DNA of 64,000 nt from Thermococcus sp. MAR1. GTDB lineage: Archaea; Methanobacteriota_B; Thermococci; Thermococcales; Thermococcaceae. The stretch's first letter is position 1. The number at the start of each line of letters is the position of its first letter. The stretch lies in assembly GCF_012027305.1 (NCBI RefSeq), contig NZ_SNUF01000002.1, positions 248,001 through 312,000 of the forward strand, given 5' to 3'. The position numbers were made by a program, and so were the translations under genes. Shown here piece by piece: positions 30,377 through 57,424 of this stretch. The notes beneath the pieces were generated by a model. The model searched no databases. It was not told the DNA's origin and saw only the letters and a list, made by a program, of their open reading frames with translations.

Positions 30377-34531
<4,155 letters not shown>

Positions 34532-35939: not shown

Positions 35940-36536
35940 TCACTGCTCGGCGTTGAGCTTCATGTCGACAACGACCTTATCGGTCTGGCACTCGTTGCCG
36001 GCTTTTTTAGAGAACTCCACGGTCATCGTGACCTTCAGAACCTCGTCCTCCTTGAGGGGCTCCTTGAGGAGCCCTATTTCCTTCCCGTTCAGTTCCTTTA
36101 GGCTCTTGTCCTTTGTCCACTCTATCTCCCAGGAATCGTCCCCGAGGTAAACCTTCAACTCCTTCACAATAAGGTATTCACTGAGCTCGCCCACATCGGT
36201 CGTGTTGTCAACGGCCTTTTCCGCCGGGCTCATGGAGCCGTCCTCAAGGTCGCTGACGTGGAGAACCATCGTCAGCCGGGAAACATCGGTGTCGCCGCGG
36301 TTTTTGATGTAGAATGTGAGTGTCCTCTCATCGCCCGGTTTGAGATTTGAGAACTCAAAGAGCTTAAGGTCGTTGTAGAACCTGCTTCCGTCCCTGCTTA
36401 TGGCTATGTCGAACTTCCCGGAGCTTATCTCGTTGTTCTGAGAGAGGGCGACGTCTGTGAAGAACGACTTCGCTGGCCCGGCCAGCACCAGCAGGGCCGC
36501 GAGAATGCCAGCTGCTACAATCCATGCACGTTTCAT
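35940..36536 (-). CDS. TasA/camelysin-like secreted protein
   Basis: A 198-residue exported protein. An N-terminal hydrophobic helix (WIVAAGILAALLVLAG) ends in a signal-peptidase-like site before SFFTDVALSQNN. The mature part is beta-rich with NLKPGDERTLTFYIKNRGDTDVSRL, the pattern of the TasA/CalY (SipW-dependent) family. Some family members form extracellular fibres. ATG 36536 follows GGTGG; a longer frame has no supported start. It lies 82 bp after a DUF1616 membrane gene on the same strand. No signal peptidase of the SipW type is in the window. Confidence 0.7.
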   Translation of the reverse strand: MKRAWIVAAGILAALLVLAGPAKSFFTDVALSQNNEISSGKFDIAISRDGSRFYNDLKLFEFSNLKPGDERTLTFYIKNRGDTDVSRLTMVLHVSDLEDGSMSPAEKAVDNTTDVGELSEYLIVKELKVYLGDDSWEIEWTKDKSLKELNGKEIGLLKEPLKEDEVLKVTMTVEFSKKAGNECQTDKVVVDMKLNAEQ

Positions 36537-36618
36537 CGACACCACCTTATATAGTATTTTCGGAGGGATTACACAAGTGGAGCTTATAAAATTTTCTCTC
36601 AAAATGGTAAGAATGGAC

Positions 36619-37620
36619 TCACGGTCTGACGTTCACGTTGAGTTTTAGGGACTGGATTGTGCCGTTTATGGCTTCGATGATGAGGTTTTTGGCGTCCGTT
36701 TCGGCGTAGTTTCCATCGGGAGGTGCCGGGGGAAGTTCTGGCTGGGTGCCCTTGAAGAGGAGGAACCAGACCTGCCACCTGCCGGGCTTATCGATGCTGA
36801 AGGTGTAGTTGGTCTCGAACTGCGGCGTCCAGTTCCCCTCTATGTTGACGGGGACGTTAGGCAGGGTTACGTTGAACCAGCCGGGCATCGGGTACATCTC
36901 GTGGATCACCGTTGTGTTCGTGGTGTTGTCCCAGGTGAGGTTGACGAGCCATACTTGGACGTAGTAGGTCACGTTCCTGTGCTCATGGTTGACTATGCCG
37001 ATTATGACCGTCCCGTTTTCTCCCGCAAAGAGGTCGGTTGGGTAGTCGGCGGCCTTTCCTCCCGGCCCGAGGATGTAGAACTCTGTGAACGCTTCACCTG
37101 GCTTTGGGTGCGTTATGACATAGGCGAGGGTTCCGATTGAGGTTATTATGGCGATTATCAGAATAACCGTCAGTGCTTTGTCGAGTTTGCCCGATTCCTC
37201 CCATTCGAGCTCTTCCTTTATTTTTTCAACCGTTGTCCACGGAATCCATGGCTCTATTGCGTTCTCCCTGCGGTAGATCGCTACAACCGCGAATATCAGG
37301 TTGAAAACCGTCAGGCTGACGAGTATTGGGATGAGCCTTATCCCCCAGGGAGTGTAGTTTAATGCTAAGCCTATAAGCGGGACTATGGCTATGCTCAGTC
37401 CGAAGCTTAAAGCTAACCTTTCAAGGTTGTCCAGCTCCTTCTTTTCCGGGAACAGGGTGGTTATGAATACGTAGCCAGGAAAGAATAGGACGAAAGCTAA
37501 ACCGAGGGCTTTTCTCAGAATGCTCTCCGGATACAGCCATATCAGGAGGTCAAGGACCACCGAGAGTCCGATGATCATCAGTAAATCCCAGTACCTCCAG
37601 GGGCCCTTTGGTTCATCCAC
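36619..37620 (-). CDS. DUF1616 membrane protein
   Basis: A 333-residue protein with about five N-terminal membrane helices (to about residue 115), one more near 150-170, and an external beta-rich domain (residues about 180-333) that looks like a DUF1616 region with NVTYYVQVWLVN and GRWQVWFLLFKG. DUF1616 proteins are archaeal and of unknown function. It starts with GTG 37620, overlapping the end of the small upstream gene. It probably belongs to one operon with the TasA-like gene. Confidence 0.8.
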   Translation of the reverse strand: MDEPKGPWRYWDLLMIIGLSVVLDLLIWLYPESILRKALGLAFVLFFPGYVFITTLFPEKKELDNLERLALSFGLSIAIVPLIGLALNYTPWGIRLIPILVSLTVFNLIFAVVAIYRRENAIEPWIPWTTVEKIKEELEWEESGKLDKALTVILIIAIITSIGTLAYVITHPKPGEAFTEFYILGPGGKAADYPTDLFAGENGTVIIGIVNHEHRNVTYYVQVWLVNLTWDNTTNTTVIHEMYPMPGWFNVTLPNVPVNIEGNWTPQFETNYTFSIDKPGRWQVWFLLFKGTQPELPPAPPDGNYAETDAKNLIIEAINGTIQSLKLNVNVRP

Positions 37621-37858
37621 CGCTCAGCACCTCGTAGACCTTTTTCGTCACTATTATGGCGAATATTATCAGGAGGAGCTCCACCATTGGTTTGAGGTTT
37701 TCCTTCTGCTCCCTGCTCATAAAGAGGCCGCCAACTTCCATGGCTATAAGCAGGCCTATTAGCGTAAGGGTTAGGAAGACGTCGACGCTCTTGACGGTTA
37801 GGGCTGAACCCAAGATCCAGAAGGATAGGAAAAGCAAGGTGTAGTCCTCTACATCCAC
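37613..37858 (-). CDS. Small membrane protein, 81 residues
   Basis: A protein with three likely membrane helices (about 8-22, 27-46 and 56-76). Overlaps of 8-10 bp with both neighbours show translational coupling. No family is recognised. It probably works with the DUF1616 protein. Confidence 0.75.
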   Translation of the reverse strand: MDVEDYTLLFLSFWILGSALTVKSVDVFLTLTLIGLLIAMEVGGLFMSREQKENLKPMVELLLIIFAIIVTKKVYEVLSGG

Positions 37859-38595
37859 TCTTCAACGCCCCCGAGCCTTTCAACCTCTATCTCGAACCCG
37901 TAGTCCTTTTCCTCGACTCTCCGGGTGTAGAGCACTTCCCCCGTGGCCCTGGCCAGAGCGAGGAGGATGGAGGAGCATACAGGGCACGCTATCTTTTCAC
38001 ATATTTCGGGGTTGCATTCCACATCCGGCTGGACGACAACCCGGAAGCCGTTCTCCAGCTCCTCTATATAGACCCTGCTGGCGAGTCCCAGGGCCTTCAG
38101 CACAGCCCCGGCGGCCGACTCAACGGTGCCGGGACCGCTCCCTCTGAGGGGGTATTCAAGGTGCTCTTCATACTTCTTCAGAAGGTCCAGGCCAATGGGC
38201 CCTAGGAAGAGCCCCATGGCCCTGTCGTTAGGGACATCCGTCAGGAAGACCGTTTCGGTGTCCAGCCTCGCAAGGTCTAGCTCGAATCTCTCGTGGAGGG
38301 GCACAAAAATACCCCCCTCTGGGAGGTTCTCAAAGGGGGGTATGTACACAGCGTTGCCCTCTAAGTTAAGGTTCCTCACGAATGACTCGAAGAACCTTTC
38401 GTAGGAGCCCGTCACGTACCTGAGGGCGTCACGCTTAACGTAGGAGGAAGGTTTAAAAGTAAGGATAACGGCTCCCAGGAACATGCCGGCTATCCCGAGG
38501 TTGATGTGGTTCGAAAGAGCGTTCAGGAAGCCGTGGAGGGCCAGGACTCCCCCCGAGACCACTAGGGCTCCTCCGATGATGTCCTTCGTCTCCAT
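37849..38595 (-). CDS. Membrane-anchored protein with four-Cys cluster, function unknown
   Basis: A 248-residue protein with two N-terminal membrane helices and a cytoplasmic-looking or external domain of about 190 residues. It contains CNPEIC-x4-CPVC (two Cys pairs), which could bind a metal, and GPIGLDLLKKYEEHLEYPLRG. ATG 38595 is chosen because TATA at about 38630 predicts a start near 38605; an upstream ATG at 38622 is a weaker option. It is first in the operon that includes the DUF1616 and TasA-like genes. Confidence 0.65.
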   Translation of the reverse strand: METKDIIGGALVVSGGVLALHGFLNALSNHINLGIAGMFLGAVILTFKPSSYVKRDALRYVTGSYERFFESFVRNLNLEGNAVYIPPFENLPEGGIFVPLHERFELDLARLDTETVFLTDVPNDRAMGLFLGPIGLDLLKKYEEHLEYPLRGSGPGTVESAAGAVLKALGLASRVYIEELENGFRVVVQPDVECNPEICEKIACPVCSSILLALARATGEVLYTRRVEEKDYGFEIEVERLGGVEEWM

Positions 38596-38623
38596 CCCTT
38601 TCCCCACGCTCACAACAACCATT

Positions 38624-38636
38624 AACCTTAAAAGAT
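38624..38636. promoter_or_regulatory. Shared divergent promoter
   Basis: CCTTAAAAG is a TATA box on the plus strand and CTTTTAAGG on the minus strand, so one element may drive both membrane clusters, with transcription starts near 38605 and 38655. Confidence 0.5.
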
Positions 38637-38663
38637 TTGTCTTATGATGAGTTGTTGATTGAA

Positions 38664-40442
38664 ATGAGGAAGCGAATCGCTCTAATGGTGGTGCTCATAC
38701 TGCTTCTCGGCCTTCCTGCAGTTGCGGGTGAAGGCTCCAACTATTACTCCGCTAGGCCCGATGAGTACGGGACTTACGTTTACTTCAGCTCAATGCTATG
38801 GGAATTCTCCTCCGTTTTGGATGGGGTTCTGAACGGCGAGAACGGCACGGTTGAGAGTGCCCTTGAGCTGTACGCCCTCGCGAACACAACCTACGAGACC
38901 CTGGTGCTCTACTCCGGGGCGGGTATCGATGAGAGGCCCCTTGAGCTGGTTCCCTACTTCCTCTCCCTGGGCTCGGCTGCCTTTGAGGTGGCCTCTGGGG
39001 AGGCTTCCTTCAGGGCGAGCTTTTCAGAGGGGGAGTACGCGGCCGCACGGGCCGCCCTCGTGCGTATGAAGAGGGGACTGAGGGAGTCCCGTGATGCTCT
39101 GAGTGCCATATCAAAGATAACCCTTAAAGGGAAGAACGGTACGGTGCTGACCTTTAACACTGCGGATCTCTATCCGAAGCTCGATGCCCTTGAGGCCCTT
39201 GCCGGCAGGTATGAGGGGCTCCTTGATCAGGTCCAGGTTCCCGAAAACTTCACCCTCTTCATTTCCAACCCCTCCCCCCTGGCCCTGGAAAACGTTACCT
39301 TCTACGGCTTTACCCTCGGCCTGAGGGACATTCACGTGGTCGTCTCGGGAGAGAACCTGACCGCTAACGTCACCAGCGGCACTTTCCATCTGGATTACTC
39401 CTTCCCGAGGCCCGGAACTTACAAAGCTTATACCGTTGGCTTCAACGGCACTTCTGAGGTCATTTCAAACGTCCTCACGATCAACGTGAGCGGCGTGCCC
39501 ACGAAGCTTTTGGTTACCGCGATCTCTGACGGTGGGGTCTTGGTCGAGGGCCACCTCGTGGACTACTTTGGAAGGGCCCTTCCGTGGAAGAGGGTCATCC
39601 TTACGGCGGACAGCTCCACGTACTACGGCATAACCGACGAAAACGGGAGCGTCAGGTTCTTCATCGCCAACGTCTCCGGGACCGTTAACGCTACTGTCCT
39701 CTTCCCGGGTGACGGGATACACCTCCCGACAAGCGCTGGCTTGGTGTTGACACCCCCTCTGAGAAGGCCCGCGATACGGCTGTTCCATGAGGGGAGCCGA
39801 GTCAGGGCAGGAGAGGAGGTGGTAATACGGGGTAAAGTCGATAGCACCTACCCGCTGCCCCTCACAATCTATGTGGACGGGAAGAGGTATTCCACACTCG
39901 TGGCAAAAGGGGAGTTCACATTCACCCTCAGCTTTTCCCCCGGGAGGCACGAGGTCTACGCGTACTTCGCCGGGAGTGAAACCCTGGCACCGTCATCGTC
40001 CAACGTCCTGACCCTGGAAGCAGCCCCTGTGGACTACACAAGGAGGTTCCTTCTTTTCGTGTTCCTTCTCCTTCTGGCCTTCACCGCCTACAGGTTCACA
40101 GCCAGAAGACGGGTTGGAGGGGTGCCTTCCTCACAGGTACCTGAAGCACCAGCGTTCCCACCTATTGGGGAGGAAGGAGAGGAAAGACCGGATATTGGAA
40201 AGGCTTACCGCACCGTCTACGGCCTCCTGAAGAGGCTGTACGACCTTCCTGGGTCCACAACTCCCCGTGAGCTGGTGTCCGCCTTAAGGCATGAGCCCTT
40301 CGCGGAGCACCTTAAAATCCTCACCCGCCTCCATGAGGTTACAGTTTACGGTAAGAAAAAGTTCGGGCTCCGTGAAGTCCTCCGTGCGGTCAAGCATGCC
40401 TCGCTCATTATAGTGGGAGTTTTCGTGAGGGATGAGCTGTGA
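38664..40442 (+). CDS. Secreted/membrane protein with Ig-like region and DUF4129-like C-terminus
   Basis: A 592-residue protein with signal peptide (residues 1 to about 22), an N-terminal helical domain, two or three Ig-like beta domains (about 190-440), one membrane helix (near 455-475), and a C-terminal cytoplasmic DUF4129-type segment. The last part (YRTVYGLLKRLYDLPGSTTPRELV split) is typical of proteins next to MoxR and DUF58. Start ATG 38664 lies just after the predicted transcript start. Stop overlaps the next GTG start. Confidence 0.75.
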   Translation: MRKRIALMVVLILLLGLPAVAGEGSNYYSARPDEYGTYVYFSSMLWEFSSVLDGVLNGENGTVESALELYALANTTYETLVLYSGAGIDERPLELVPYFLSLGSAAFEVASGEASFRASFSEGEYAAARAALVRMKRGLRESRDALSAISKITLKGKNGTVLTFNTADLYPKLDALEALAGRYEGLLDQVQVPENFTLFISNPSPLALENVTFYGFTLGLRDIHVVVSGENLTANVTSGTFHLDYSFPRPGTYKAYTVGFNGTSEVISNVLTINVSGVPTKLLVTAISDGGVLVEGHLVDYFGRALPWKRVILTADSSTYYGITDENGSVRFFIANVSGTVNATVLFPGDGIHLPTSAGLVLTPPLRRPAIRLFHEGSRVRAGEEVVIRGKVDSTYPLPLTIYVDGKRYSTLVAKGEFTFTLSFSPGRHEVYAYFAGSETLAPSSSNVLTLEAAPVDYTRRFLLFVFLLLLAFTAYRFTARRRVGGVPSSQVPEAPAFPPIGEEGEERPDIGKAYRTVYGLLKRLYDLPGSTTPRELVSALRHEPFAEHLKILTRLHEVTVYGKKKFGLREVLRAVKHASLIIVGVFVRDEL

Positions 40443-41467
40443 ACAGGGTCGTGTACGGCATACTCCTGGTCGTCGGCGTGGGGCTCCTGGTTATGCCCCT
40501 ATCGGTTCCGGTCTTCAAGAGCGACGCCGCCTACAGCGTGCTCAACACCAACTGGAACGGTCTTTCCAGCTTCGGGAAGCTCCTCTACTCCACCGGAGAA
40601 ATAACCCCGCTCCTTGCTCCCTACGACTCCTCGGGTTTGGAGAACTTCAAGGGCACGCTCGTGGTCGTTGGGCCGAACCTCGACTTCTCGGGGGGTGAGA
40701 TAGACTCCCTGAGGAGGTTCCTTGAAAATGGCAATACTTTACTCCTTGCCGACGACTTTGGGACGGGCAACCAGGTGCTTGAGGGCCTCGGGCTCAGGGT
40801 AAGGTTCTCAAAGGTTCCCCTCATCAGCCTGACATATTCCAAGAACTCGGACTTCCCCCTCACGGTTGATATCCGCGATGCGGAGCTTGCCGGGGGCGTT
40901 ATGAGGCTGGTGATGAGCAGACCCTCGGCAGTCCTCAACGCCGGGAACTCCACGGTTCTTGTGTACTCCAGCAACGCCTCGATGCTTGGAAAGGAGTACG
41001 GTGCATTCCCCCTGGTTGTGGAAGTTCCTTACGGGAAGGGACGGATAATTCTCGTCTCCGACCCTGATATCTTCACCAACTCCCTCTTCCGGGAGAACGA
41101 GGCCTTTCTGAGGAACCTTGTTTCTTCCCTCCCTGAAAAGACCTTCTACATAGACGAGGCCCACCATGCGGACTTCAACCCCTACTCCTCGGGGACGATG
41201 GTCATAAGGCGGGCGGTCAACAGGGAGCTCGTCTTCTACTACGTCCTCTTTATAGCCCTGCTGGCACTGGCGGTCGAAAGCGGCCTCACCGGATGGCTTA
41301 TGCACCGCTTCGCTCTCCTCCTCATGAGGCTTTTCCCCGGGGAGGAGGAGCCGGTTGAAGAGGTCGTGAAGAGGCTTGAGGAGAGGGGCCTCGACGGGGA
41401 TAAGTTAAAAACCATCCTCCGGGAAATAGAGACGGGTTCAAAACTGGGTGGTGCCCATGGACGGTAA
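40439..41467 (+). CDS. DUF4350-type membrane protein
   Basis: A 342-residue protein with an N-terminal membrane helix, a large external domain with glutamine-amidotransferase-like fold segments (FKGTLVVVGPN, LRRFLENGNTLLLADDFG), and a second membrane helix near 265-285. It matches DUF4350 proteins that accompany MoxR/DUF58/DUF4129. GTG start overlaps the preceding stop. It overlaps the MoxR start by 11 bp. Confidence 0.8.
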   Translation: MNRVVYGILLVVGVGLLVMPLSVPVFKSDAAYSVLNTNWNGLSSFGKLLYSTGEITPLLAPYDSSGLENFKGTLVVVGPNLDFSGGEIDSLRRFLENGNTLLLADDFGTGNQVLEGLGLRVRFSKVPLISLTYSKNSDFPLTVDIRDAELAGGVMRLVMSRPSAVLNAGNSTVLVYSSNASMLGKEYGAFPLVVEVPYGKGRIILVSDPDIFTNSLFRENEAFLRNLVSSLPEKTFYIDEAHHADFNPYSSGTMVIRRAVNRELVFYYVLFIALLALAVESGLTGWLMHRFALLLMRLFPGEEEPVEEVVKRLEERGLDGDKLKTILREIETGSKLGGAHGR

Positions 41468-42386
41468 GGAATTCATGGAGAGGCTGAGGAAAGAGATAAG
41501 TAAGGCAGTCGTTGGAAAGGACGACGTGATAGAGCTGCTGACGGTGGCCCTTCTCTCCGAGGGGCACGTGCTCATAGAGGGAATCCCTGGAGTGGCAAAA
41601 ACGACTATAGCCAAGGCCTTTGCGAACGCCATAGGGCTGAGCTTCTCCCGCGTACAGCTCACCCCCGACCTCCTGCCCGCTGACATAATCGGCGTTGTCT
41701 ACTACGACCAGAAGACCGGCCAGTGGAGGACCAAGAAGGGTCCGATATTCGCCAACATCGTTCTGGCCGACGAGGTCAACAGGGCCCAGCCCAAGACTCA
41801 GAGCGCGCTCCTTGAGGCAATGCAGGAGAGGCAGGTCACCATAGAGGGCACCACCCATACGCTGCCCGAGCCCTTCCTCGTCATAGCAACCATGAACCCG
41901 CTGGAGCACGAGGGAGTGTACGTCCTCCCCGAGGCCCAGCTGGACAGGTTCCTCCTCAAGATAGAGATAGGCTTCCCAGACAGGGAAGAGGAGATATCCC
42001 TCCTCAAGAGAAAGAGCCTCGGGGAGTTCTACGAGGTCGAGCCGATAGTGACCCATGAGGAGCTCATAGGGCTTATAGGCCAGGTAAAGAGGGTTAAAGT
42101 CAGCGACGAGGTCATAGAGTACATATACTCCCTGGTATCCGCCACAAGGGCGGATGAGAGGCTTCTCTTCGGCGCATCGCCTAGGGCAGGAGAGCACCTG
42201 CTCTTCGCTTCCAAAGCAGCAGCTTTTCTTGACGGCAGGGACTACGTCATACCTGACGACGTTAAGAAGGTCGCGGTCCCGGTGCTCGTCCACAGGCTCC
42301 TCCTGAAGGCGGAGTACGAACTTGAGGGGATCAGGGTGAGGGACGTCATCCTCGACGTCCTCAGGGAGACTGAAATCCCGGTGTAG
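41457..42386 (+). CDS. MoxR-family AAA+ ATPase
   Basis: A 309-residue AAA+ ATPase: Walker A GIPGVAKTTIAKAF, Walker B IVLADEVNRA, sensor I and arginine-finger regions later. MoxR proteins act as chaperones that activate or assemble partner proteins, often with DUF58 proteins as found directly downstream. ATG 41457 has GGGTGG upstream. It is cytoplasmic. Confidence 0.93.
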   Translation: MDGKEFMERLRKEISKAVVGKDDVIELLTVALLSEGHVLIEGIPGVAKTTIAKAFANAIGLSFSRVQLTPDLLPADIIGVVYYDQKTGQWRTKKGPIFANIVLADEVNRAQPKTQSALLEAMQERQVTIEGTTHTLPEPFLVIATMNPLEHEGVYVLPEAQLDRFLLKIEIGFPDREEEISLLKRKSLGEFYEVEPIVTHEELIGLIGQVKRVKVSDEVIEYIYSLVSATRADERLLFGASPRAGEHLLFASKAAAFLDGRDYVIPDDVKKVAVPVLVHRLLLKAEYELEGIRVRDVILDVLRETEIPV

Positions 42387-42389
42387 CCG

Positions 42390-43697
42390 ATGAAGCGCGA
42401 AGACCTGTTGATCCTTCTATCGTTCCTCCTCGTCCTTGAGGGCTACCTCGGGGGGAACGTGGCCCCGGCCCTGCTGGGGGTCTTCCTCCTCCTGTACCTC
42501 TACGGACTCAGGCTGGTAACCAGGATTGGGGTCTCGGGCGAGAGGGCCATCGAGGGCACAAAGCTTGAGGAGGGGAAGGCTGTAACCGCCGCCCTGAGGC
42601 TCAGGAACACCGGGGGAGACGTCTTCGTCAGGGTGCGCGAGGAAACCCCCGGCTTTGAGGCCGAACCCGTCGAGATTTTCCTCGGTTCCGGGGAGGAGAA
42701 GACCGTCACATACTCCATCGTCCCTAAGGCGAAGGGGAGGTTCACGCTAAGGCCCCCGAGGGCCATCGCCCTTGATCCGAGGGGCCTGTACGTGGAGGAG
42801 TTCGTCCTTGGAGAAGGGTTGGGGGTTCTGGTTCGTCCGAGCATTGAGAGCATAAGGGACGCGGTGAGGGCCGACCACAACCTCCGCCTCGCCGAGGCCT
42901 ACAGGAAGGGGGCCTTCCTCGGGACAGAGAGCCTGGAGATAAAGGACCTGAGGGAGTACCAGCACGGGGACGACTTCAAGAGGATAGACTGGAAGGCAAC
43001 AGCCAGGCTCGGCGAGCTGGTTGTGAAGGACTTCCTGCGGGAGGAGAACGCGGACGTCTACATATTCCTCGACAACACCTCCGAGATGCGGAAGGGCATA
43101 AAAAGGGCAAAGATAGACTACGCCTCGACCCTTGCCCTGCAGCTTGCGGCCAACCTCGTTAGCAGGTTCCGGGTCGGCATGGTCATCTACGACGATGCCC
43201 GTGCAGAACTCCTCCCGCCCGGAAAGGGCCCGTCCCAGGTGGAGGCCATCAGGGAGAGGCTCTCAATCAAGGGAAAGGGCGGGGCTATGAGCATGCGCTT
43301 TGAGTTTGACATCCGGATGGGCGAGAAGGCCAGGGAGTTCCTCGGCAAGGTTCTGCCCCTGAGGAAGGGCAGGAAGGGCCCCACCGGGGTCTTTGAGGGG
43401 CTGTCCCTGGTAAAGAACCCGTCGTACATAATATTCATAACAGACCTCAGCAACCCGCGGGAGCTCTACCGGGCCATAGCGACTGCCGTTAGAGCCCACA
43501 GGGTCATGGTGCTCTCCCCCAACCCCGTGCTTTTCTACTCCGGGAGGCTGGACGAGAAGACCCTTGAGAGGCTCTACAGGGCTTACGTTGAGAGGGAGAA
43601 CCTCCTGAGGAAGTTCAACCTCCTGGCGCCTACGATAGACCTCGGCCCGAGCGACTACCTAAGGGAAATCATGAAACTGGAGGGGTGGGGGAGATGA
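42390..43697 (+). CDS. DUF58 domain protein with vWA-like fold
   Basis: A 435-residue protein with two N-terminal membrane helices, a beta domain, the DUF58 signature REYQHGDDFKRIDWKATAR and a von Willebrand A-like region (DVYIFLDNTSEM). It follows MoxR by 3 bp and is its likely partner. The cellular role of the MoxR-DUF58 pair in archaea is not settled. Confidence 0.9.
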   Translation: MKREDLLILLSFLLVLEGYLGGNVAPALLGVFLLLYLYGLRLVTRIGVSGERAIEGTKLEEGKAVTAALRLRNTGGDVFVRVREETPGFEAEPVEIFLGSGEEKTVTYSIVPKAKGRFTLRPPRAIALDPRGLYVEEFVLGEGLGVLVRPSIESIRDAVRADHNLRLAEAYRKGAFLGTESLEIKDLREYQHGDDFKRIDWKATARLGELVVKDFLREENADVYIFLDNTSEMRKGIKRAKIDYASTLALQLAANLVSRFRVGMVIYDDARAELLPPGKGPSQVEAIRERLSIKGKGGAMSMRFEFDIRMGEKAREFLGKVLPLRKGRKGPTGVFEGLSLVKNPSYIIFITDLSNPRELYRAIATAVRAHRVMVLSPNPVLFYSGRLDEKTLERLYRAYVERENLLRKFNLLAPTIDLGPSDYLREIMKLEGWGR

Positions 43698-44236
43698 TAG
43701 GGGTAATATCCGCGGTGATTGCGGGCCTGATGACCGGGAGCCGTGTCCTCCTCCTCGCTCCACTGGTCTACATAGTCTCCAGGAAGAATCGCGACGCGGG
43801 GCTGATGGCCTACTTCCTCCTCTCCCTCTACACCGGCGGAGAGGTCTTCTCTTCAAGCCTGTACACCTACGATGGCCTGGTCACCGCCCTGGTCTACGCC
43901 TCCTCCATGGTGCTCCTCCTCGACGACTCCCTCCTCGGGAGGAGAATATCGAGGCTTGAGCTCTTCGTTGTTCCGTTCCTGATTGCTGGCATCCTCTTCC
44001 CGGAGGCCTTCATAGCCGGAAGCGTTTTCTACTTCGCGGTGAGGTTCAGGATAGACGCCAGGGTTGCCGGTGTTGTTGGTGCCATGCTCCTCCTGTTCAC
44101 AGCGGCAAGGGGCTATCTGGACGTCCCGGGGGGCGCTTCCAACCAGGCCGTTGTATTGGCAGGTTTCGCCCTGTTCCTGGCCGTCATGACGACCCTCAGG
44201 GGAAATCTTAAAAAGGTTGATCTGTTTAGGGAGTGA
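43694..44236 (+). CDS. Multi-pass membrane protein of the MoxR/DUF58 cluster
   Basis: A 180-residue protein with about five or six membrane helices and few polar loops. ATG 43694 overlaps the stop of DUF58 by 4 bp. Only context suggests function: last gene of the MoxR cluster. A downstream run of T is absent. Confidence 0.75.
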   Translation: MIGVISAVIAGLMTGSRVLLLAPLVYIVSRKNRDAGLMAYFLLSLYTGGEVFSSSLYTYDGLVTALVYASSMVLLLDDSLLGRRISRLELFVVPFLIAGILFPEAFIAGSVFYFAVRFRIDARVAGVVGAMLLLFTAARGYLDVPGGASNQAVVLAGFALFLAVMTTLRGNLKKVDLFRE

Positions 44237-44309
44237 TGAAAAGGGAGTTGTTGCGTTACCTGCGTGTCCTCTGCGCTGTGTATCCCCCCAAATTGTAACG
44301 GTGAGTTCC

Positions 44310-45182
44310 ATGCGGACGCTGATACTCATCCCGGCCTACAACGAGGAGCTGACGGTTGGTTCGGTCGTTGCCTTAGCCAAGAAGTACGGGGACGTTTTAG
44401 TCGTTGACGACGGCTCAGCCGATAGAACTTCCGAGATAGCCCAGAGGGCCGGGGCGGTTGTGATACGACATTCAGCTAACAGGGGGAAAGGGGCAGCTTT
44501 AAAAACGGGCTTCGAGTACGCTTTGAGCCGGGGATATGAGATTGTCGTTACGCTTGACGCCGACGGCCAGCACAATCCCGACGAGATACCCCTCCTCATG
44601 GAGCCCATAATCAGGGGCAAGGCGGATCTCGTGATAGGGTCGAGGTACCTCAACGGGAGCAAAAAGGGAATCCCCGTCTACAGACGGCTGGGGCTGTGGG
44701 TGCTGAACAAAAGCACCAAAGTGGCCTCGAACGTTGATGTCGATTCGCAGAGCGGCTTTAGGGCGCTGAACAGGAGGGCCCTTGAGAGGTTGGACTTAAA
44801 CAGTGATGGCTACTCAATAGAGACGGACATGATAGTGAAGGCGAGCGAGAGGGAGATTAAACTCGTGGAGGTGCCGATAAGCGTCCGCTACGATGTCCCA
44901 AACAGGCACAAGAAGAACCCTCTTACTCATGGTCTTGGCGTGCTGGCGAGCATTATCGGGCTTATAGGGTACAAACGGCCTCTGCTGCTGTTCGGGGTTT
45001 TGAGTCTGATATCATTCATCACCGCAGGCATCCTCGGGTATATGGCGCTGAAGCCATACTATCAGGGAGGTAATGTTTATCTGACCCAGGCAATAGGCGC
45101 CGGCATCTTCGTGATCATCGGGATTCAGCTGTTCATCGCCGGGCTGACGCTGAACGTCTTAGCGAGGATGGTGAGGGAGTGA
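44310..45182 (+). CDS. GT2 glycosyltransferase, dolichyl-phosphate sugar synthase type
   Basis: Transfers a sugar from a nucleotide donor to dolichyl phosphate, giving a lipid-linked donor for surface glycans. The 290-residue protein has the GT-A motifs PAYNEELTV, VVDDGSADRT, LDADGQHNPDE, and two C-terminal membrane helices (about 222-245 and 262-284), as in archaeal DPMS III type. It begins the glycan cluster. The upstream extension of the frame has no start supported by a ribosome site; GTGAG lies before ATG 44310. Confidence 0.9.
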   Translation: MRTLILIPAYNEELTVGSVVALAKKYGDVLVVDDGSADRTSEIAQRAGAVVIRHSANRGKGAALKTGFEYALSRGYEIVVTLDADGQHNPDEIPLLMEPIIRGKADLVIGSRYLNGSKKGIPVYRRLGLWVLNKSTKVASNVDVDSQSGFRALNRRALERLDLNSDGYSIETDMIVKASEREIKLVEVPISVRYDVPNRHKKNPLTHGLGVLASIIGLIGYKRPLLLFGVLSLISFITAGILGYMALKPYYQGGNVYLTQAIGAGIFVIIGIQLFIAGLTLNVLARMVRE

Positions 45183-45186
45183 GTTC

Positions 45187-45270
45187 ATGGCGATCGGCTT
45201 TGTGATGAGCTACCTGTTTAAAGTGATGGTCGAGGTCAAGAAGAGCATAAGGGAGCTGAAGGAGGGTTAA
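45187..45270 (+). CDS. Possible 27-residue small protein
   Basis: From ATG 45187 the frame encodes MAIGFVMSYLFKVMVEVKK and a charged tail, ending TAA 45268-45270. It looks like an amphipathic membrane peptide. GGAGGG inside its end is the ribosome site of the next gene. It could be a small subunit of the glycosyltransferase or a chance frame. Confidence 0.4.
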   Translation: MAIGFVMSYLFKVMVEVKKSIRELKEG

Positions 45271-45272
45271 AA

Positions 45273-46529
45273 ATGAGAATCTCAGTCCTCGGTCTTGGAT
45301 ACATAGGGTTACCAACCGCCTTGTTATTTGCCTCGGCTGGATACAATGTCGTGGGCGTTGACGTTAACGATAAAAAAGTTAAGCTCCTCAACGATGGAAA
45401 ACTACCCTTTCAGGAACCGGGACTGGAAGAGCTGTTTGAAAAAGCAAAACAAAACTTTAAGGCGACAACAGAGGTCGAAGAGAGCGATGTATTCCTGATA
45501 GCAGTTCCAACGCCACTTGACGAAAAGACAAAGGCGGCTGATTTAAGGTACGTAAGATCCGCGTCAGAAATGATAGTTCCACACTTGAGGAAGGAAAATC
45601 TTGTAATACTGGAATCCACAGTTCCGCCAAAAACAACGGAACGTCTTCTCATCCCGATCCTTGAAAAGAGTGGTCTAAAAGCCGGGAAAGACTTCCACGT
45701 TGTTCACTGTCCGGAGAGAGCAATCCCCGGCAAAACGATTCACGAGATGATCTACAACGACAGGATAATCGGTGGTATCACAAAGGAATCGGCTGAACTC
45801 GCTAAAGAGCTGTATTCCTCCTTTGTTAAGGGCAACATTTACATCACCGATGCCACAACTGCAGAGTTTGTAAAGCTGATAGAAAACACCTACCGCGATG
45901 TTAACATCGCCCTCGTCAATGAGTTAGCTCAGATAGCAGAGGAGTACGGGATCAACATCTGGGAGGCGATAGAGCTCGCCAACAGGCACCCAAGGGTTAA
46001 CCTCCACAAGCCCGGGCCGGGGGTTGGGGGACACTGCATAGCCATCGACCCGTGGTTCCTCATCCAGGACTCCTCAAACGGTAAGATGATAGCACTGGCA
46101 AGGCACGTGAACGATACCATGCCCAATTATACCCTCCGTCGGGTCAGGGAGATGTTAAAAGGTGTGGACTATCCGACGATCACCGTTTTTGGCGTTGCCT
46201 ATAAGGGAAACGTTGACGATGCTAGAGAAACTCCAGCGCTGAGGTTCATACGCTTGGCGAAGAACGATGGATTCAAGGTTAAGGTGTACGATCCCTTTGT
46301 CAATGAGTTTGAATACCCGATTCTAGGCCTCGAAGAGGCAGTTAGGGACAGCGACTGCATCGTTGTAATAACTGACCACGACGTTTTCAGGTTCCTCGAT
46401 CCGGATGATATAGGCAAGCTAATGAGAAACAGGTGCGTCTTTGATGCGAGGAACGTACTCGATCATGAGAAGTGGAGGAGAGCAGGGTTTAAAGTCAGGG
46501 TGCTTGGAGATGGAAAGGAGAACCTATGA
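45273..46529 (+). CDS. wecC: UDP-sugar 6-dehydrogenase, WecC type (UDP-ManNAc dehydrogenase)
   Basis: Oxidises UDP-N-acetylmannosamine (or a related UDP-sugar) to the uronic acid with two NAD. The 418-residue protein has GLGYIGLPTA (NAD site), IAVPTPLDEKTKAA, and catalytic Cys255 in GGHCIAIDPWF. The usual partner, UDP-GlcNAc 2-epimerase WecB, is not adjacent; the next gene is DUF354. The end overlaps that gene by 20 bp. Confidence 0.92.
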   Translation: MRISVLGLGYIGLPTALLFASAGYNVVGVDVNDKKVKLLNDGKLPFQEPGLEELFEKAKQNFKATTEVEESDVFLIAVPTPLDEKTKAADLRYVRSASEMIVPHLRKENLVILESTVPPKTTERLLIPILEKSGLKAGKDFHVVHCPERAIPGKTIHEMIYNDRIIGGITKESAELAKELYSSFVKGNIYITDATTAEFVKLIENTYRDVNIALVNELAQIAEEYGINIWEAIELANRHPRVNLHKPGPGVGGHCIAIDPWFLIQDSSNGKMIALARHVNDTMPNYTLRRVREMLKGVDYPTITVFGVAYKGNVDDARETPALRFIRLAKNDGFKVKVYDPFVNEFEYPILGLEEAVRDSDCIVVITDHDVFRFLDPDDIGKLMRNRCVFDARNVLDHEKWRRAGFKVRVLGDGKENL

Positions 46530-47547
46530 CCTCTGGGCCGACGTTGCTAACACTCCACAGGTTCATGTGATTGCCTCCATAGTCAGGGAGCTTAAGGATT
46601 ACTCAATCTATATAACTGGCTTTAGCAGGGGAGAAACCGCGCAGTTGATAAAGATGTACGGCCTCGAAGGGGAGGTTTTTGGCTCCGACAGATACAACCC
46701 CCTAATGAAGTCTCTGTCGTTCGCTGGAAGAACTTTTCGTTTGCTCTACAAAGCGCCGAGGGCAAAAGCGTTGCTGAGCTTTGAAAACGCGATGCCGATT
46801 CCTGGGGGAAAGCTCAGGGGGATGAAGGTTATACTGATGCTCGACAACGACCTAAAGTTTGTGGGCAAAAAACCCCTATTCCAGAGGGTTGAATCAAGGA
46901 TAAAGAAAATGGCCGATGTGGTTTTAGTTCCAGAAGTTGCGGAGGAGCCGTTCAGAGGGTACTTTGGGGATAAGGTAATGACTTATCCCGGCTACAAGGA
47001 GCACATATACATAGCCGACTTCACGCCCGATCCGGACTTCATAGAGAAGAGCGGAATTCCCTTTGATGAATACGTGGTCATAAGGCCCGAGTCGCTGACG
47101 TCTCTGTACGTCCTTCACGGCAGGTCCCTGGTTCCCGATTTGCTGAGATTGTTCGAGAAAGAGAACATAAACGTCGTTTATCTTCCGAGAAACGATGAAG
47201 AGAAGGCACTCGCGAGGGGTTTTGAGAACGTTTACATTCCTCCTAAAGCTCTTGATGGCCTCAACTTAATCCATCACTCAAAGGCAACACTCACAGGTTC
47301 GGGAACAATGGCAAGGGAAGCTGCAGTCATGGGGGTTCCGGCTGTATCGTTCTTCCCTGGCGAGAGGCTGCTTGCCGTTGACAGGGATTTAGTTGAGAAG
47401 GGGAAAATGCTGCACTCGAGGGAGCCTGAGGAGATCGTGGAGTATGTGTTAAATAGTTTGGGTAAAAACTATAGAAAAGACTTTGAAAGGGCGAGTGAAG
47501 TTAAGAATTTGGTTATTAGGCATGTAATAAACACGATAGGGGGTTAA
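46510..47547 (+). CDS. DUF354 protein, UDP-GlcNAc 2-epimerase-like fold
   Basis: A 345-residue GT-B fold protein with DLWADVANTPQVHV near the start, a feature of DUF354. These archaeal and bacterial proteins resemble UDP-GlcNAc 2-epimerases and glycosyltransferases. Beside WecC it may supply the missing epimerase step or act as a transferase. ATG 46510 is inside wecC; the frame remains open further upstream without a good start. Confidence 0.75.
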   Translation: MERRTYDLWADVANTPQVHVIASIVRELKDYSIYITGFSRGETAQLIKMYGLEGEVFGSDRYNPLMKSLSFAGRTFRLLYKAPRAKALLSFENAMPIPGGKLRGMKVILMLDNDLKFVGKKPLFQRVESRIKKMADVVLVPEVAEEPFRGYFGDKVMTYPGYKEHIYIADFTPDPDFIEKSGIPFDEYVVIRPESLTSLYVLHGRSLVPDLLRLFEKENINVVYLPRNDEEKALARGFENVYIPPKALDGLNLIHHSKATLTGSGTMAREAAVMGVPAVSFFPGERLLAVDRDLVEKGKMLHSREPEEIVEYVLNSLGKNYRKDFERASEVKNLVIRHVINTIGG

Positions 47548-47548
47548 C

Positions 47549-48775
47549 ATGGAGCAGGGGCTGCTCTGGAAGTCTGTGGATTCATTGTACTCTTGGGTTA
47601 AAAAGGAGAAATATAGAGGATGGGATCCTTACGATGGGCTTAGTGGAAACATCTCCCAAAGATTTGCTCACAAAAAACTTCTAAATATAGCACTTATACA
47701 GGTAAACCTTTATTCTCCCTTAAACTTAAGGCCCCTCTTTGGAATCAGGTCGGGTCGTTCAAATAAAGCGTTGGCCCTTTTTTCGAGGGCGTATTTATAT
47801 TTATATTCCATGACGGGTCTTGAGGAGTTTAAAATCGAGGCTAAAGGTCTTTTGAAACAACTGGAGAACCAAAATCTTAGTAAAAATAAGGATAAGTTCT
47901 CCTGCGCAAGCTATTATTTTCCGTATATTGCTCCAAAGCATTATCTGTCTGCATCATTACCTGACATAATATGCGTTACCGAGACTATAAAATCAGCTAT
48001 AACCGCATACGAAGTTCTTGGAAAAAAGCACTACCTTAATTTTGCCATCAAAGGTCTGAATTTTTTAATTGGGGATCTATTGGAGGAGTCTAATGGGATA
48101 GCGTATTTCAAATATACCCCCGAAGAACAGGGGAAGGTCGTTTTCAACGTCTCTGCCCTGGCCCTTGAAAGCACAGCCCGTTTATTGAAGTACACTTTAA
48201 ATGACGAGCTTATTGAAATTGGAGAAAATATAATGAAACTCCTGTTAGAGCATCAAAGGGAAGATGGTGCTTGGCCATACTCCCGTTACTTCGGCTCCAA
48301 CCTTTATTACTGGCAAATTGACTACCATCAGGGATTCATACTAGATGGGCTGATAGAATTTCTGCCATACCTCGAGGATGATAGTCTTAAACGGGATTGT
48401 GTGAAGGCAATACTCAAAGGGGCTGAGTTTTACATGAGAAAACAGTTTACGCCGGAAGGAGTATCATATTATAGGTACCCCGTGAAGTATCCCATAGACA
48501 TTCATAATCAGGCACAGGGAATAATAACGTTTTTAAAACTCTACAGAGTCTTCTATGAGTCCAAATATTTAAATTTTGCAGAAAGAATAGCCGAATGGAC
48601 GATCAGAAATATGCAGGACCCGAGTGGATATTTTTATGCCCACAGATGGCCCGGGTTTGTGAATAAGATTCCATATATGAGATGGGCTCAGGCTTGGATG
48701 ATGCTTGCATTGGCTACCCTAGTAAACTCTAAGATCGGTGATAATGATGAAAGTTTTAATGATCGGTCCAATTGA
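47549..48775 (+). CDS. Unknown protein, probable (alpha/alpha) barrel carbohydrate enzyme
   Basis: A 408-residue soluble protein made of repeated helix pairs with aromatic and His-rich loops (DGAWPYSRYF, QIDYHQGFILDGLIEF, FYMRKQFTPEGVSYY, YAHRWPGF, RWAQAWMMLAL). This layout suggests an (alpha/alpha) barrel like epimerases or unsaturated uronidases. I do not recognise the family. It starts the AT-rich part of the glycan cluster. Confidence 0.6.
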   Translation: MEQGLLWKSVDSLYSWVKKEKYRGWDPYDGLSGNISQRFAHKKLLNIALIQVNLYSPLNLRPLFGIRSGRSNKALALFSRAYLYLYSMTGLEEFKIEAKGLLKQLENQNLSKNKDKFSCASYYFPYIAPKHYLSASLPDIICVTETIKSAITAYEVLGKKHYLNFAIKGLNFLIGDLLEESNGIAYFKYTPEEQGKVVFNVSALALESTARLLKYTLNDELIEIGENIMKLLLEHQREDGAWPYSRYFGSNLYYWQIDYHQGFILDGLIEFLPYLEDDSLKRDCVKAILKGAEFYMRKQFTPEGVSYYRYPVKYPIDIHNQAQGIITFLKLYRVFYESKYLNFAERIAEWTIRNMQDPSGYFYAHRWPGFVNKIPYMRWAQAWMMLALATLVNSKIGDNDESFNDRSN

Positions 48776-49832
48776 GAAGGCGGGAGGAGTTTCAACTCAT
48801 ACAAAAGAACTGACAAGAGCTCTTCGAAAGCTGGGGGTTAATGTTGAGGTCTATAACATTAGCCCTGACAAAGAATACTCCCTTCCTATTTCTGCATTAA
48901 TTAAATTGTACAAGAGAACCCTGGGACTTTCATTTAAACTATTGAAAGATTCTAAGAAGTTCGATGTTATCCATATCCAGTCTTCCGGACCAATCGGGGG
49001 TTTTCTGCCCGCAATAGTGGGGGCATTGTGGAAGAAGTTGCTGGGATTTAAACTTATAGTTACTTTTCACTATAGGCCTGACAAAAGGTTTATACAAAAA
49101 TGGAGATGGGTATTCAACTTTGTGCTTTCTAATAGTGATCGTTTGTTTGTAGTCTCTCAGCAACAGAGAGATAATATAAAGCATATTTTTGAAGATGAAA
49201 ATGTAAGAAAGGTCTTGGTTATTCAAAATGGTTTCAACTCTTCCCTATTTAATCCAGTGGACAAGTTTGAAGCCAGGAAGATTTTGGGCTTGCCCTCCGA
49301 TAAGAGGGTGATTCTTAACGTTGCTAATCTCGTGCCCGTTAAGGGTCACGAGTTTTTGATAAGGGCGTTTTCTAAAGTTGTTAAGGAGAGAAAGGATGTC
49401 CTGCTCATTATAGTTGGCGATGGTTCCGAGAGGAAGAAGCTGGAGAGGCTAATTTCTGAGTTAGGACTTGAGAATTATATTAAGCTTGTTGGTTCTAAGC
49501 CTCACGACGAGATTCCCCTGTGGATGAACGCCGCCGACATCTTTGTCCTCCCTAGCCTGAGCGAGGGCAACCCAACGGTCATGTTTGAGGCTCTTGGAGT
49601 TGGTTTGCCCTTTGTTGGGACTGCCGTTGGCGGTGTTCCTGAGATAATAACCTCCGGGGATTATGGGTTGCTCTGTCCGCCAGCTGATCCAGAGTGCTTG
49701 GGAGAGAAAATTTTAATAGCCCTCGATAAAGAATGGGACAGGGAGAAAATAAGAGAGTATGCGGAGCAGTTTACTTGGGAGGAGATTGCAGAGAAGATAT
49801 TGGGGGTTTACTATGAAGTATTCAAGAATTAA
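48747..49832 (+). CDS. GT4 glycosyltransferase
   Basis: A 361-residue GT-B enzyme: N-terminal GPIEKAGGVSTHT, C-terminal LNVANLVPVKGHEFLIRAF and the donor-site SLSEGNPTVMFEALGVGLP (E-x7-E like). It adds a sugar to a glycan intermediate in the cytoplasm; sugar and acceptor unknown. Its start lies in the end of the previous gene (GGTGAT, then ATG 48744 or 48747). Confidence 0.88.
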   Translation: MKVLMIGPIEKAGGVSTHTKELTRALRKLGVNVEVYNISPDKEYSLPISALIKLYKRTLGLSFKLLKDSKKFDVIHIQSSGPIGGFLPAIVGALWKKLLGFKLIVTFHYRPDKRFIQKWRWVFNFVLSNSDRLFVVSQQQRDNIKHIFEDENVRKVLVIQNGFNSSLFNPVDKFEARKILGLPSDKRVILNVANLVPVKGHEFLIRAFSKVVKERKDVLLIIVGDGSERKKLERLISELGLENYIKLVGSKPHDEIPLWMNAADIFVLPSLSEGNPTVMFEALGVGLPFVGTAVGGVPEIITSGDYGLLCPPADPECLGEKILIALDKEWDREKIREYAEQFTWEEIAEKILGVYYEVFKN

Positions 49833-51558
49833 ATTTCTACTACTTGAAATTGCATTTACCGTCCTGTTTTTAGCATCCCTCTATCTATATCAGAATAGGC
49901 AACACCCTTATATTAGGCCCACATCGTATTTTGTTCTCCTCGCTTTTATGGCTGCTGTGGTTTTTTTACAGTCTCTTAACTGCTCATCTGGGAACGTAAG
50001 GCGGGCTTTGATTATCTTAAATATCCTTCTCATTGCCTATTCGTTCATTCTTACTCAGCAGGCGTTATACAAGACTGTCTTAAGTAGAGACCCTTGGGGG
50101 CATATGGTATTAACTTACCAGATATTGAAGGGGGGTCACATTCCTTCCCCTGAGAGTGCTTGGACAGCTGGTGTTTACACTAAAATGCCTGGGTTCCATC
50201 TAATTTTGTCCGTTCTTATAAATATACTGGACGTCTCATACAAATGGGCCTCGGTAGTATTGGGGCTGGGCATTCTAACGGGTGTGGTGATTTGGGGGTA
50301 TCTTTTTTCAAGAACAGTTTTGGATAATAAAAAACTGGCCCTTATAGCATCCCTATTAATTGCAGTCTCCGATAACGTTTTGAGCATGACCGGAATAAAT
50401 ATAGTGCCAAATTCCCTTGGAGTTCTAATGGTTCTAACTGCTTTCTACATTCTTTTCAGAGTATTTACGGAGAATGAAGTACAACATTCGTTAGTTGCTC
50501 TATTAATAGTGGTGATTCTCATTATGGTGTCCCTATCTGTTATGCATAGCGTCAGTTATGGGTTCATGTTAATCCATTTGCTGATATTTATGATGTTGGG
50601 CGTTTTATTATTCAGGAAAATTCCAAGTTGGGTTTCAATACTATCCCTTTTAGGGGGGATAGTGGCCTTTTTTGAGTGGGGAATGAGGAGCAACTATTAT
50701 TTGCCTCAGCTGATACTCCTGCTTAAGTTTCTGTTTCTTGGCATTGGTGTCGAATATTATGAGAAAAACGTCTCAAATATTCCATTTTCCCTAATCATCC
50801 TTGCAAGGATGGGGATGTTGATTTACTTTGCACTAGCAGCGTTCTCAATACTCCTGGAGATACGCAGATTTTTTGAGAGTAAGGAGTGGAGTCGAAAAAG
50901 GATAGTCTACTTAATTCAGGGAGGATTTTTTACTGGAATTGCACTTCCGATAACATTCTTCTGGGCCGGGATAGGGCATAGATTCTGGTATTATGGGGAA
51001 ATCTTGGGGGCCCCTTTTGTCTCCAAGCTGATAGGGGGGATTAAGAGGTCTGTTGGATTGTTATTAGTAATATTTCTAAGTTTTTTGATGTTCACATCCT
51101 CAGTGGCTAATGATGATAATCCCCTTGTTCCGCAGTATACGCTTAGAACTGGATGGTATGATTCTGAGCTTGCATCTGCAAGGTTCATACTCTTAGATGT
51201 AGACTCCCCAATAGCAGCATCTGACTGGGGCTACATTCATCATATCGAGAAGCACATTAGTAAGATATATGGACACTCAGTAGTGAAATCCAAGAGGCTT
51301 GAGTCGATTAGGAGAATATCACTTCAACCAGAATGTTTGTTAGTTGTTAGAAAAGACATAATTGAAAGTCGGCTTTTTGAGCTTAAAAACCCTCGGGATT
51401 TGAATTTGCCATTGGAAAATGAGGCTGTGAATATTCTAAGAGGACTATCAACCACTCAGAACGTGATTTATACAGATCGTAATGTTTTAATATTTTTGGG
51501 AACTCAAAAATATGAGGAGCAAACATCTATAAGAACTGCGGGTGAGATTCATGGTTAG
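49813..51558 (+). CDS. Multi-pass membrane glycosyltransferase-like protein
   Basis: A 581-residue protein with about eleven to thirteen helices and a C-terminal external domain. A loop with SRDPWGHMVLTYQIL after helix 4 recalls the Asp-containing first loop of GT-C enzymes and polymerases. It may polymerise glycan units or transfer a lipid-linked sugar. I cannot assign it further. It starts within the end of the GT4 gene and overlaps the following gene by 8 bp. Confidence 0.65.
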   Translation: MKYSRIKFLLLEIAFTVLFLASLYLYQNRQHPYIRPTSYFVLLAFMAAVVFLQSLNCSSGNVRRALIILNILLIAYSFILTQQALYKTVLSRDPWGHMVLTYQILKGGHIPSPESAWTAGVYTKMPGFHLILSVLINILDVSYKWASVVLGLGILTGVVIWGYLFSRTVLDNKKLALIASLLIAVSDNVLSMTGINIVPNSLGVLMVLTAFYILFRVFTENEVQHSLVALLIVVILIMVSLSVMHSVSYGFMLIHLLIFMMLGVLLFRKIPSWVSILSLLGGIVAFFEWGMRSNYYLPQLILLLKFLFLGIGVEYYEKNVSNIPFSLIILARMGMLIYFALAAFSILLEIRRFFESKEWSRKRIVYLIQGGFFTGIALPITFFWAGIGHRFWYYGEILGAPFVSKLIGGIKRSVGLLLVIFLSFLMFTSSVANDDNPLVPQYTLRTGWYDSELASARFILLDVDSPIAASDWGYIHHIEKHISKIYGHSVVKSKRLESIRRISLQPECLLVVRKDIIESRLFELKNPRDLNLPLENEAVNILRGLSTTQNVIYTDRNVLIFLGTQKYEEQTSIRTAGEIHG

Positions 51559-52819
51559 TGGTGGTAAAATAAAACTTTTTTTAATTAAAAAGCAACCATT
51601 TACTGAATATTTTCCCGCGTGGCCAGAAGTGAATGGGGTTTATAATAAATATCTTCCATCTATGGGATACGAAATATGGTGGATATCTCCATCGCCAGAT
51701 GTCAATAAACCTACACTCAAAAAATGGGAGAATGTAAATTTGTATCTAGTGCCCTTTGATAATTCGTCTGTTTTTATGAAGTTCATAAGTCAAATTAGGT
51801 TCGCTATCTCAGCATTCAAGTTCATACATGACCAGTTAAAGAACTCCAAGAAAGGTTTGCAAATAGTCCAAGTACGGGATAGTGTGGAGGGGGGACTCGC
51901 TGCGTTGGTTCTTAAGTATAAGCATCCAGAAGTACCAGTAGTTTTTAACTATTCATTTTTGTTCTATGAGGGGGCGTATGAGGAACTGAAAGATGGCCGG
52001 ATAAGCTTTTTTAAGTTCATTTATTGGTGGTTTTTTTATAAGTTTATTCTCTACTATCTTCTGCTTCCACATTTTGATTTGATTTTGCCCATCAGCAGGG
52101 AGATGAGGGTAAAGTTCGCTCGTGAACTGGGGATTCCAGAAGACAGGCAGGTTCCACTTCCTTTGGGTTTTGATCCATACGTATTCCATCCGCCTTCAAA
52201 ATCAGAAAAAATAGAACTTCGCAAATTGCTAGGATTTGGGAGTAAAGACGTTATTCTATTGTATTCAGGCAGCATAAACAAGTCAAGACAGGTGAGTAAA
52301 TTTGTAAGGGCGTTAACTCCAATCTTAAAAAAATATAAGAATTTAAAACTTTTGTTAGTTGGCGATGGAGACGAGATAGTTGAGTTAAATCAGTATCTCA
52401 ATAGTGTGGGTGTTAAGGATCAAGTAATACTTACAGGTAGAATCGCCTTCAAGGAAATACCCAAGTATTATTGGATCAGCGATATTGGATTATCGTTTAT
52501 AAAACCAAAAGAAATGTATCTTGTTTCTTCTCCCTGTAAACTTTTTGAATACTTAGGAAGCGGTCTGGTGGTTATTGCAAATTCAGAGGTACCAGAACAG
52601 AAACGTGTTATGTCCTCGTCGAAGGGGGGCATATTGATGCCATGGAACAATTTAGAGGATAGTCTTATTATTGTCGTTGAAGAGCTTGCGGTATCACCCA
52701 AGTTAAGAAGGAAAATGAGTATTCTTGGATATAGGCATGTAACTAAAAACAGGTCTTTTAAGAATTATTCACAACTAGTAGACAATCAATATAGGCGAAA
52801 TATGGGCGATATGAGATGA
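51551..52819 (+). CDS. GT4 glycosyltransferase
   Basis: A 422-residue GT-B transferase with a long N-terminal acceptor domain and a C-terminal nucleotide-sugar domain (VILLYSGSINKSRQVSKF, LLLVGDGDEIVEL, VILTGRIAFKEIPKYY). The usual E-x7-E is less clear than in the GT4 at 48.7 kb. GGTGAG precedes ATG 51551. It is the last plus-strand gene of the AT-rich segment. Confidence 0.8.
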   Translation: MVSGGKIKLFLIKKQPFTEYFPAWPEVNGVYNKYLPSMGYEIWWISPSPDVNKPTLKKWENVNLYLVPFDNSSVFMKFISQIRFAISAFKFIHDQLKNSKKGLQIVQVRDSVEGGLAALVLKYKHPEVPVVFNYSFLFYEGAYEELKDGRISFFKFIYWWFFYKFILYYLLLPHFDLILPISREMRVKFARELGIPEDRQVPLPLGFDPYVFHPPSKSEKIELRKLLGFGSKDVILLYSGSINKSRQVSKFVRALTPILKKYKNLKLLLVGDGDEIVELNQYLNSVGVKDQVILTGRIAFKEIPKYYWISDIGLSFIKPKEMYLVSSPCKLFEYLGSGLVVIANSEVPEQKRVMSSSKGGILMPWNNLEDSLIIVVEELAVSPKLRRKMSILGYRHVTKNRSFKNYSQLVDNQYRRNMGDMR

Positions 52820-52876
52820 TAAGTTTTCAAGAGCTTATGATAAAAATCCTAGACACGTTATATCAAATTTGAATTC

Positions 52877-54079: not shown

Positions 54080-54257
54080 CATATCCCTCCAGAGGGGTTC
54101 ACGTTTCTGGTTTAAAAATTTCATCATATTTCATCCTGCCTGGTTTCTAATTAGATGTTAACTTAACAAAAAATTCATATAATTCCAGAGAGTGCAAAAT
54201 CAGAACGTTAGCGAACAAGATCCCAATTTTTGCTTCGAAATTCCAATCCAAATGAAT

Positions 54258-54278
54258 CAGCGTGAAAACTTGACGCTG
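54258..54278. repeat. Inverted repeat upstream of the wHTH gene
   Basis: CAGCGT-N9-ACGCTG lies in the 270-bp gap between the flippase and the regulator. It is 75 bp from the regulator start and could be an operator. The rest of this gap shows only the two promoters. Confidence 0.3.
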
Positions 54279-57413: not shown

Positions 57414-57424
57414 CCACCCACACC

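Follow-up and report, generated by a model that had tools for sequence, protein, structure and literature searches.

Do the four minus-strand genes located at 35940-38595 of a 64,000-nucleotide stretch of the genome of Thermococcus sp. MAR1 (the window) encode a single surface-fibre or export system? This was the proposal of a preliminary description, which recognized a fibre-type secreted protein, a DUF1616 membrane protein, a small membrane protein and a protein with a cysteine cluster, encoded by genes with overlaps or short gaps. An open reading frame check of the window bears out this layout: all four frames are in place, with overlaps of 8-10 nt and one gap of 82 nt. Read along the minus strand, the gene of the Cys-cluster protein CysP (37849..38595, starting at ATG 38595) overlaps by 10 nt that of p81, an 81-aa membrane protein in which alignment shows two clear transmembrane (TM) segments (37613..37858), and the latter overlaps by 8 nt the DUF1616 gene (36619..37620). 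The DUF1616 assignment was well founded (Pfam E 2e-87), and the protein, 73-98% identical across Thermococcaceae, has 4-5 TM segments followed by a putative extracellular Ig-like part. Then come an 82-nt intergenic region (36537..36618, minus strand) and the gene of the TasA/camelysin-like secreted protein (35940..36536). Judging from the sequence, CysP, p81 and DUF1616 form an operon-like block.

What the preliminary description missed is a plus-strand operon standing head-to-head with this cluster, across a divergent intergenic region of only 68 bp (38596..38663). It begins with a secreted or membrane protein made of an Ig-like domain (Pfam Big_3_5, E 4e-9) and a weak DUF4129 match (E 0.0017, below the cut-off; 38664..40442). 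There follow a membrane-anchored DUF4350 protein of the arCOG01314 type with a TM segment at both ends (PF14258, E 6e-25; 40439..41467), a MoxR AAA+ ATPase (Pfam AAA_3, E 2e-63; 41448..42386), a vWA-like DUF58 protein with two N-terminal TM segments (Pfam E 1.3e-18; 42390..43697) and p183, a polytopic membrane protein with no Pfam match (43685..44236), whose position after DUF58 is conserved in relatives. This MoxR/DUF58 operon is the real partner of the minus-strand cluster. We consider it highly probable that CysP, p81 and DUF1616 make up one arm of a divergent module of eight components, the other arm of which comprises the DUF4129/Ig protein, DUF4350, MoxR, DUF58 and p183, and that the TasA-like protein stands apart from it.

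The evidence comes from searches for five of the genes across 94 Thermococcaceae genomes, followed by a comparison of positions. With DUF4350 counted only at E <1e-20 (five weak matches elsewhere, at E 1e-4 to 1e-5, being treated as unrelated), CysP and DUF4350 never occur one without the other in the 94 genomes: 71 have the two of them, and the rest have neither. They lie on one contig in 70 of the 71, invariably divergent and within 2.9 kb of each other, never on the same strand. The 75 genomes that are at least 90% complete form a high-quality set, in which counts were made per genome with kinship ignored: 63 have both CysP and DUF4350, 12 have neither and none has only one of the two (Fisher p=4e-14). 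DUF1616 and CysP occur together in 63 of the same genomes, with DUF1616 alone in five, CysP alone in none and neither in seven (p=4e-7). In the loci that we retrieved, CysP and p81 are head-to-head with the DUF4129-DUF4350-MoxR-DUF58-p183 arm, while DUF1616 is found either behind p81 or behind p183. In a Thermococcus subclade (sixteen loci), the DUF1616 gene stands at that end of the plus-strand arm which is remote from CysP, and CysP lacks most of the motif cysteines. A genome that has no DUF4350 (G018) retains a 31-residue CysP remnant adjoining DUF1616 (C1:708352-708444), which suggests that the module was lost there. Between the two arms, the CysP-DUF4129 intergenic region contains in most relatives a single A/T-rich element at some 25 nt from either start codon (AACCTTAAAAGATT in the window; AACCTTATAAAAGGTT in some relatives, which are the clearest cases), and this one element probably drives both arms.

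The association extends beyond the family. In haloarchaea, for which our evidence consists of plasmid records, a plasmid of Halorussus aquaticus encodes a p81-like protein, DUF4350, MoxR, a CysP homologue, a 162-aa membrane protein, DUF58, an Ig/DUF4129 protein and DUF1616, and taken together the haloarchaeal plasmids encode DUF1616, Ig/DUF4129, DUF58, a membrane protein of 160-190 aa, CysP, MoxR, DUF4350 and p81. Profile comparison supports homology for CysP (hhalign score 99.6, against a maximum of 23 for shuffled controls) and for p81, whose haloarchaeal homologue sits beside DUF4350 (47.9 against 15.9); the same comparison detects no homology between p183 and its positional counterpart in haloarchaea. 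Among eight further plasmid loci centred on CysP, DUF58 is annotated beside it in seven, and MoxR is within 10 kb in four. A scan of genome contigs with one haloarchaeal CysP returned the query itself as its sole match. In a genome from another family of the class that includes Thermococcaceae, the genes for CysP, DUF1616 and a divergent secreted protein of 598 aa all lie within 7 kb. The link of CysP and p81 to the module thus holds in two archaeal classes.

What might such a module do? By analogy with NorQ/NorD and RavA/ViaA, MoxR would be a hexameric ATPase acting through DUF58. DUF1616, DUF4350 and the DUF4129/Ig protein would make up an envelope complex, which the MoxR/DUF58 pair would remodel or bring to maturity. 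CysP and p81 may be membrane adaptors on the cytoplasmic side, CysP by a topology predicted from its sequence. This fits the distribution of N-glycosylation sequons, of which DUF1616 has ten and CysP and p81 none, as befits an extracellular and a cytoplasmic exposure, respectively. The overall role would be the assembly or export of surface proteins, and 'export', as the preliminary description had it, does match a published prediction, although for the module without TasA. A different role deserves attention, in which the module, instead of secreting proteins, would serve to make a surface glycan or S-layer component or to attach it, with DUF1616 and the DUF4129/Ig protein as glycosylated scaffolds (they carry 10-12 sequons) the assembly of which is regulated by MoxR and DUF58. 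Genes for a GT2 glycosyltransferase and a UDP-sugar dehydrogenase come directly after the plus-strand arm, with STT3 further along, and glycosyltransferases are also seen beside haloarchaeal modules. However, they are not adjacent in all relatives among the retrieved loci, and the module itself has no enzymatic glycan domain, so that we regard this role as a serious possibility, if not the likelier one. Secretion, chaperone and S-layer or glycan roles may all be compatible with the genome. The neighbouring region of the window (44217-58420) is a glycan/N-glycosylation locus encoding GT2, UDP-sugar dehydrogenase, GT4, a flippase-like protein, STT3 and an NTP-transferase, within which the G+C content falls to about 40% at 48-54 kb.

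CysP raises a question of its own. It has no Pfam match, nor does p81, and its AlphaFold model (pLDDT 87.6) consists of an N-terminal TM hairpin followed by a globular alpha/beta domain. The cysteine cluster noticed at the outset is present, as C-x4-C-x4-C-x2-C at residues 194, 199, 204 and 207, and is found in many Thermococcaceae, but it is not a stable trait: alignments show it to be missing from the Thermococcus subclade mentioned above and from the haloarchaeal homologues. For the same reason we rejected the view of the cluster as a family hallmark of iron-sulphur or zinc type. Could CysP be a divergent ligand-binding protein of the V4R/TRAPP-Bet3 type, its cysteines binding a metal or sensing a hydrophobic ligand in order to control MoxR/DUF58? 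The top Foldseek matches are indeed TRAPP subunits and H-NOX domains (E 0.013-0.2, probability up to 0.99), and in the model the last long helix and the closing pair of strands come after the cluster. Yet Foldseek gives no match at E<=0.001, the TM-score is 0.29 by query length (0.29/0.41), and comparison with the V4R profile by hhalign yields a probability below 2%, with scores near those of reversed and shuffled controls; the absence of the cysteines from the subclade and from haloarchaea weighs on the same side. We therefore hold this identity to be unlikely, and treat the V4R/TRAPP fold as a weak lead, suggested by Foldseek without profile support.

There remains the TasA-like protein, for which the fibre-type assignment stands. 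This 198-aa protein with an N-terminal signal helix matches Pfam Peptidase_M73 (PF12389; E 1.9e-8, 34.8 bits for a cut-off of 22.5), while it misses the NCBIfam TasA equivalog cut-off (24 versus 450 bits). Its start is ATG 36536; a longer TTG frame reaching 36602 was discarded, finding no support in relatives. With its AlphaFold model (pLDDT 78.5) as query, Foldseek ranks first the TasA fibre (8aur; E 5e-8, TM 0.59) and second the bundling pilus of Pyrobaculum (7ueg; E 6e-4), with Sulfolobus threads further down and, lower still, Pyrodictium cannulae. Residues 19-39, at the N-terminus, are disordered in the monomer model, which is consistent with donor-strand fibre formation without being proof of it. 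The alignment shows no conserved HExxH motif, so that 'camelysin peptidase' is here the name of a family, not of an activity. By its fold, the protein would be a Sec-exported, donor-strand-type fibre subunit, independent of the module.

Is it nevertheless the substrate of a four-gene system, with DUF1616, p81 and CysP as a dedicated exporter or assembly platform? The arrangement is certainly not peculiar to this strain, a point on which the preliminary description had made its proposal depend: TasA and DUF1616 directly adjoin each other in 31 of the 54 genomes where this could be tested (31 of 94 overall), in five genera, always on the same strand and with gaps of 82-240 nt, and TasA is a protein of fibre fold. 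But the two do not co-occur beyond chance. In the high-quality set, TasA and DUF1616 are both present in 60 genomes, TasA alone in seven, DUF1616 alone in eight and neither in none (p=1); the corresponding figures for TasA and CysP are 55, 12, 8 and 0 (p=0.34). Eight of these genomes thus have the module without TasA, and seven have TasA without DUF1616. The TasA gene adjoins a HAD gene (44/65) more often than DUF1616 (31/54); it sits beside HAD, rubrerythrin and ribonucleotide reductase (RNR) genes in some relatives and in unrelated places in others. (In the window, a ribonucleotide reductase gene split by a LAGLIDADG intein, according to Pfam, is found at 30377-34468.) The gene also has a predicted promoter of its own in the 82-nt region, the BRE/TATA-like element GAGAAAATTTTATAAG, which recurs upstream of TasA in many relatives whether or not DUF1616 is the neighbour, and it is in this respect a separate transcription unit. 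Finally, orthologues are present in 77 of the 94 Thermococcaceae genomes, missing from 21 genomes elsewhere in the phylum and unseen among the annotated neighbours of haloarchaeal modules; across these 94 and 21 genomes, the TasA-like protein is confined, within its phylum, to Thermococcaceae. A four-gene fibre exporter is therefore very unlikely, and the neighbourhood analysis that the preliminary description called for gives a clear partition, CysP and DUF1616 going with the MoxR/DUF58/DUF4350 operon and TasA with neither. The position of TasA beside the module, which is seen in part of the family, is no more than local synteny. In four Pyrococcus-like genomes a second, paralogous MoxR/DUF58 cluster lies about 10 kb or less from the TasA gene; together with the adjacency of TasA to DUF1616 in five genera, this leaves room for a loose functional link, which may exist. 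Also very unlikely is the composite picture of an ancient archaeal MoxR-DUF58-DUF4350-DUF4129-DUF1616-CysP-p81 machine under a shared bidirectional promoter, with CysP as its membrane-anchored V4R/TRAPP-like regulator and the TasA-like protein as a lineage-specific substrate acquired in Thermococcaceae.

If TasA is exported independently of the divergent module, which peptidase processes it? The window contains no SipW, as had been remarked, and the search elsewhere does not supply one: no SipW-fused peptidase is found in this genome at E<=1e-20, although the genome has three archaeal-type signal peptidase matches outside the window. Among the 94 Thermococcaceae, 11 carry a SipW-fused peptidase over its length, and two more do so at threshold; in the genomes examined it has an operon to itself, apart from two or three TasA-like proteins that are encoded there too. 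Genome content had been considered as a link between TasA and SipW, and this was rejected, the peptidase being present in 11-13 of 94 genomes and TasA in 77. The general archaeal signal peptidase, by comparison, is found in 91 of the 94. As SipW itself is an enzyme of the ER/archaeal type (PMC10269814), the general peptidase could cleave the TasA-like protein of the window, and we infer that it probably does. The TasA/SipW operon of Thermococcus relatives (six loci; 5126-9864 in L156, also L157-L160 and L175) is complete, located upstream of an alaS-like gene, and encodes an HTH regulator, two TasA-like proteins, in some cases a third protein with an alternate signal, a SipW-like peptidase that has a long extension at its C-terminus, and a membrane protein of 344 aa.

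How does all this compare with known systems? It is that second, distinct operon, with its two or three TasA-like proteins and SipW-like peptidase, that resembles the SipW-TasA operon of Bacillus; it is not part of the window, and the search of this genome did not find its peptidase. The TasA-like protein of the window shares with Bacillus subtilis TasA and the bundling pili of Pyrobaculum calidifontis a jelly-roll fibre fold, an F-x-D segment after the signal peptide and an LKPGD motif. Unlike Bacillus TasA, it has no adjacent SipW or TapA, and it differs from both in being encoded by a near-universal, usually single-copy gene in Thermococcaceae, with a conserved C-terminal NECQTD...AEQ segment specific to this family. 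As for the module, a MoxR-type AAA+ ATPase encoded with a vWA-like partner, here DUF58, recalls NorQ/NorD and RavA/ViaA, but here the genes that accompany the pair code for membrane proteins and extracellular Ig proteins rather than for a soluble enzyme complex. The Haloferax DUF1616 protein HVO_2173 is N-glycosylated (PMC8241124), and arCOG02884/HVO_2173 is listed again in PMC6393860.

The closest counterpart is the putative novel archaeal secretion system that Makarova, Galperin and Koonin (2015; PMC5898192) described around arCOG01314, with DUF4350, MoxR, vWA and DUF1616 proteins and a Thermococcus example, TON_1832. The same neighbourhood of DUF4350, MoxR AAA+ ATPase, Ig/vWA protein (here of the DUF58 type), DUF1616 (pfam07760) and small membrane proteins is found here, which makes the module a putative arCOG01314-type system, secretion being a prediction in that article as well; the DUF58 protein of the window may be the counterpart of arCOG02742/02747. 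The main text of that article does not describe CysP or p81 individually, nor does it count TasA among the components, and CysP and p81 may be among the entries that it gives as 'membrane protein with 2-3 TMs'. Their placement may be new, unless it is already within the supplementary tables of that article. What our analysis contributes to the published system is the strictness of the co-occurrence, the assignment of CysP and p81 to it in two classes of archaea, a promoter element that both arms probably share, and the removal of TasA from the picture. Two proteins without Pfam match are thereby assigned to a widespread archaeal membrane machine with a predicted core, and one 68-bp promoter region with two operons, given the workable genetics of Thermococcus, offers a clean genetic test of it.
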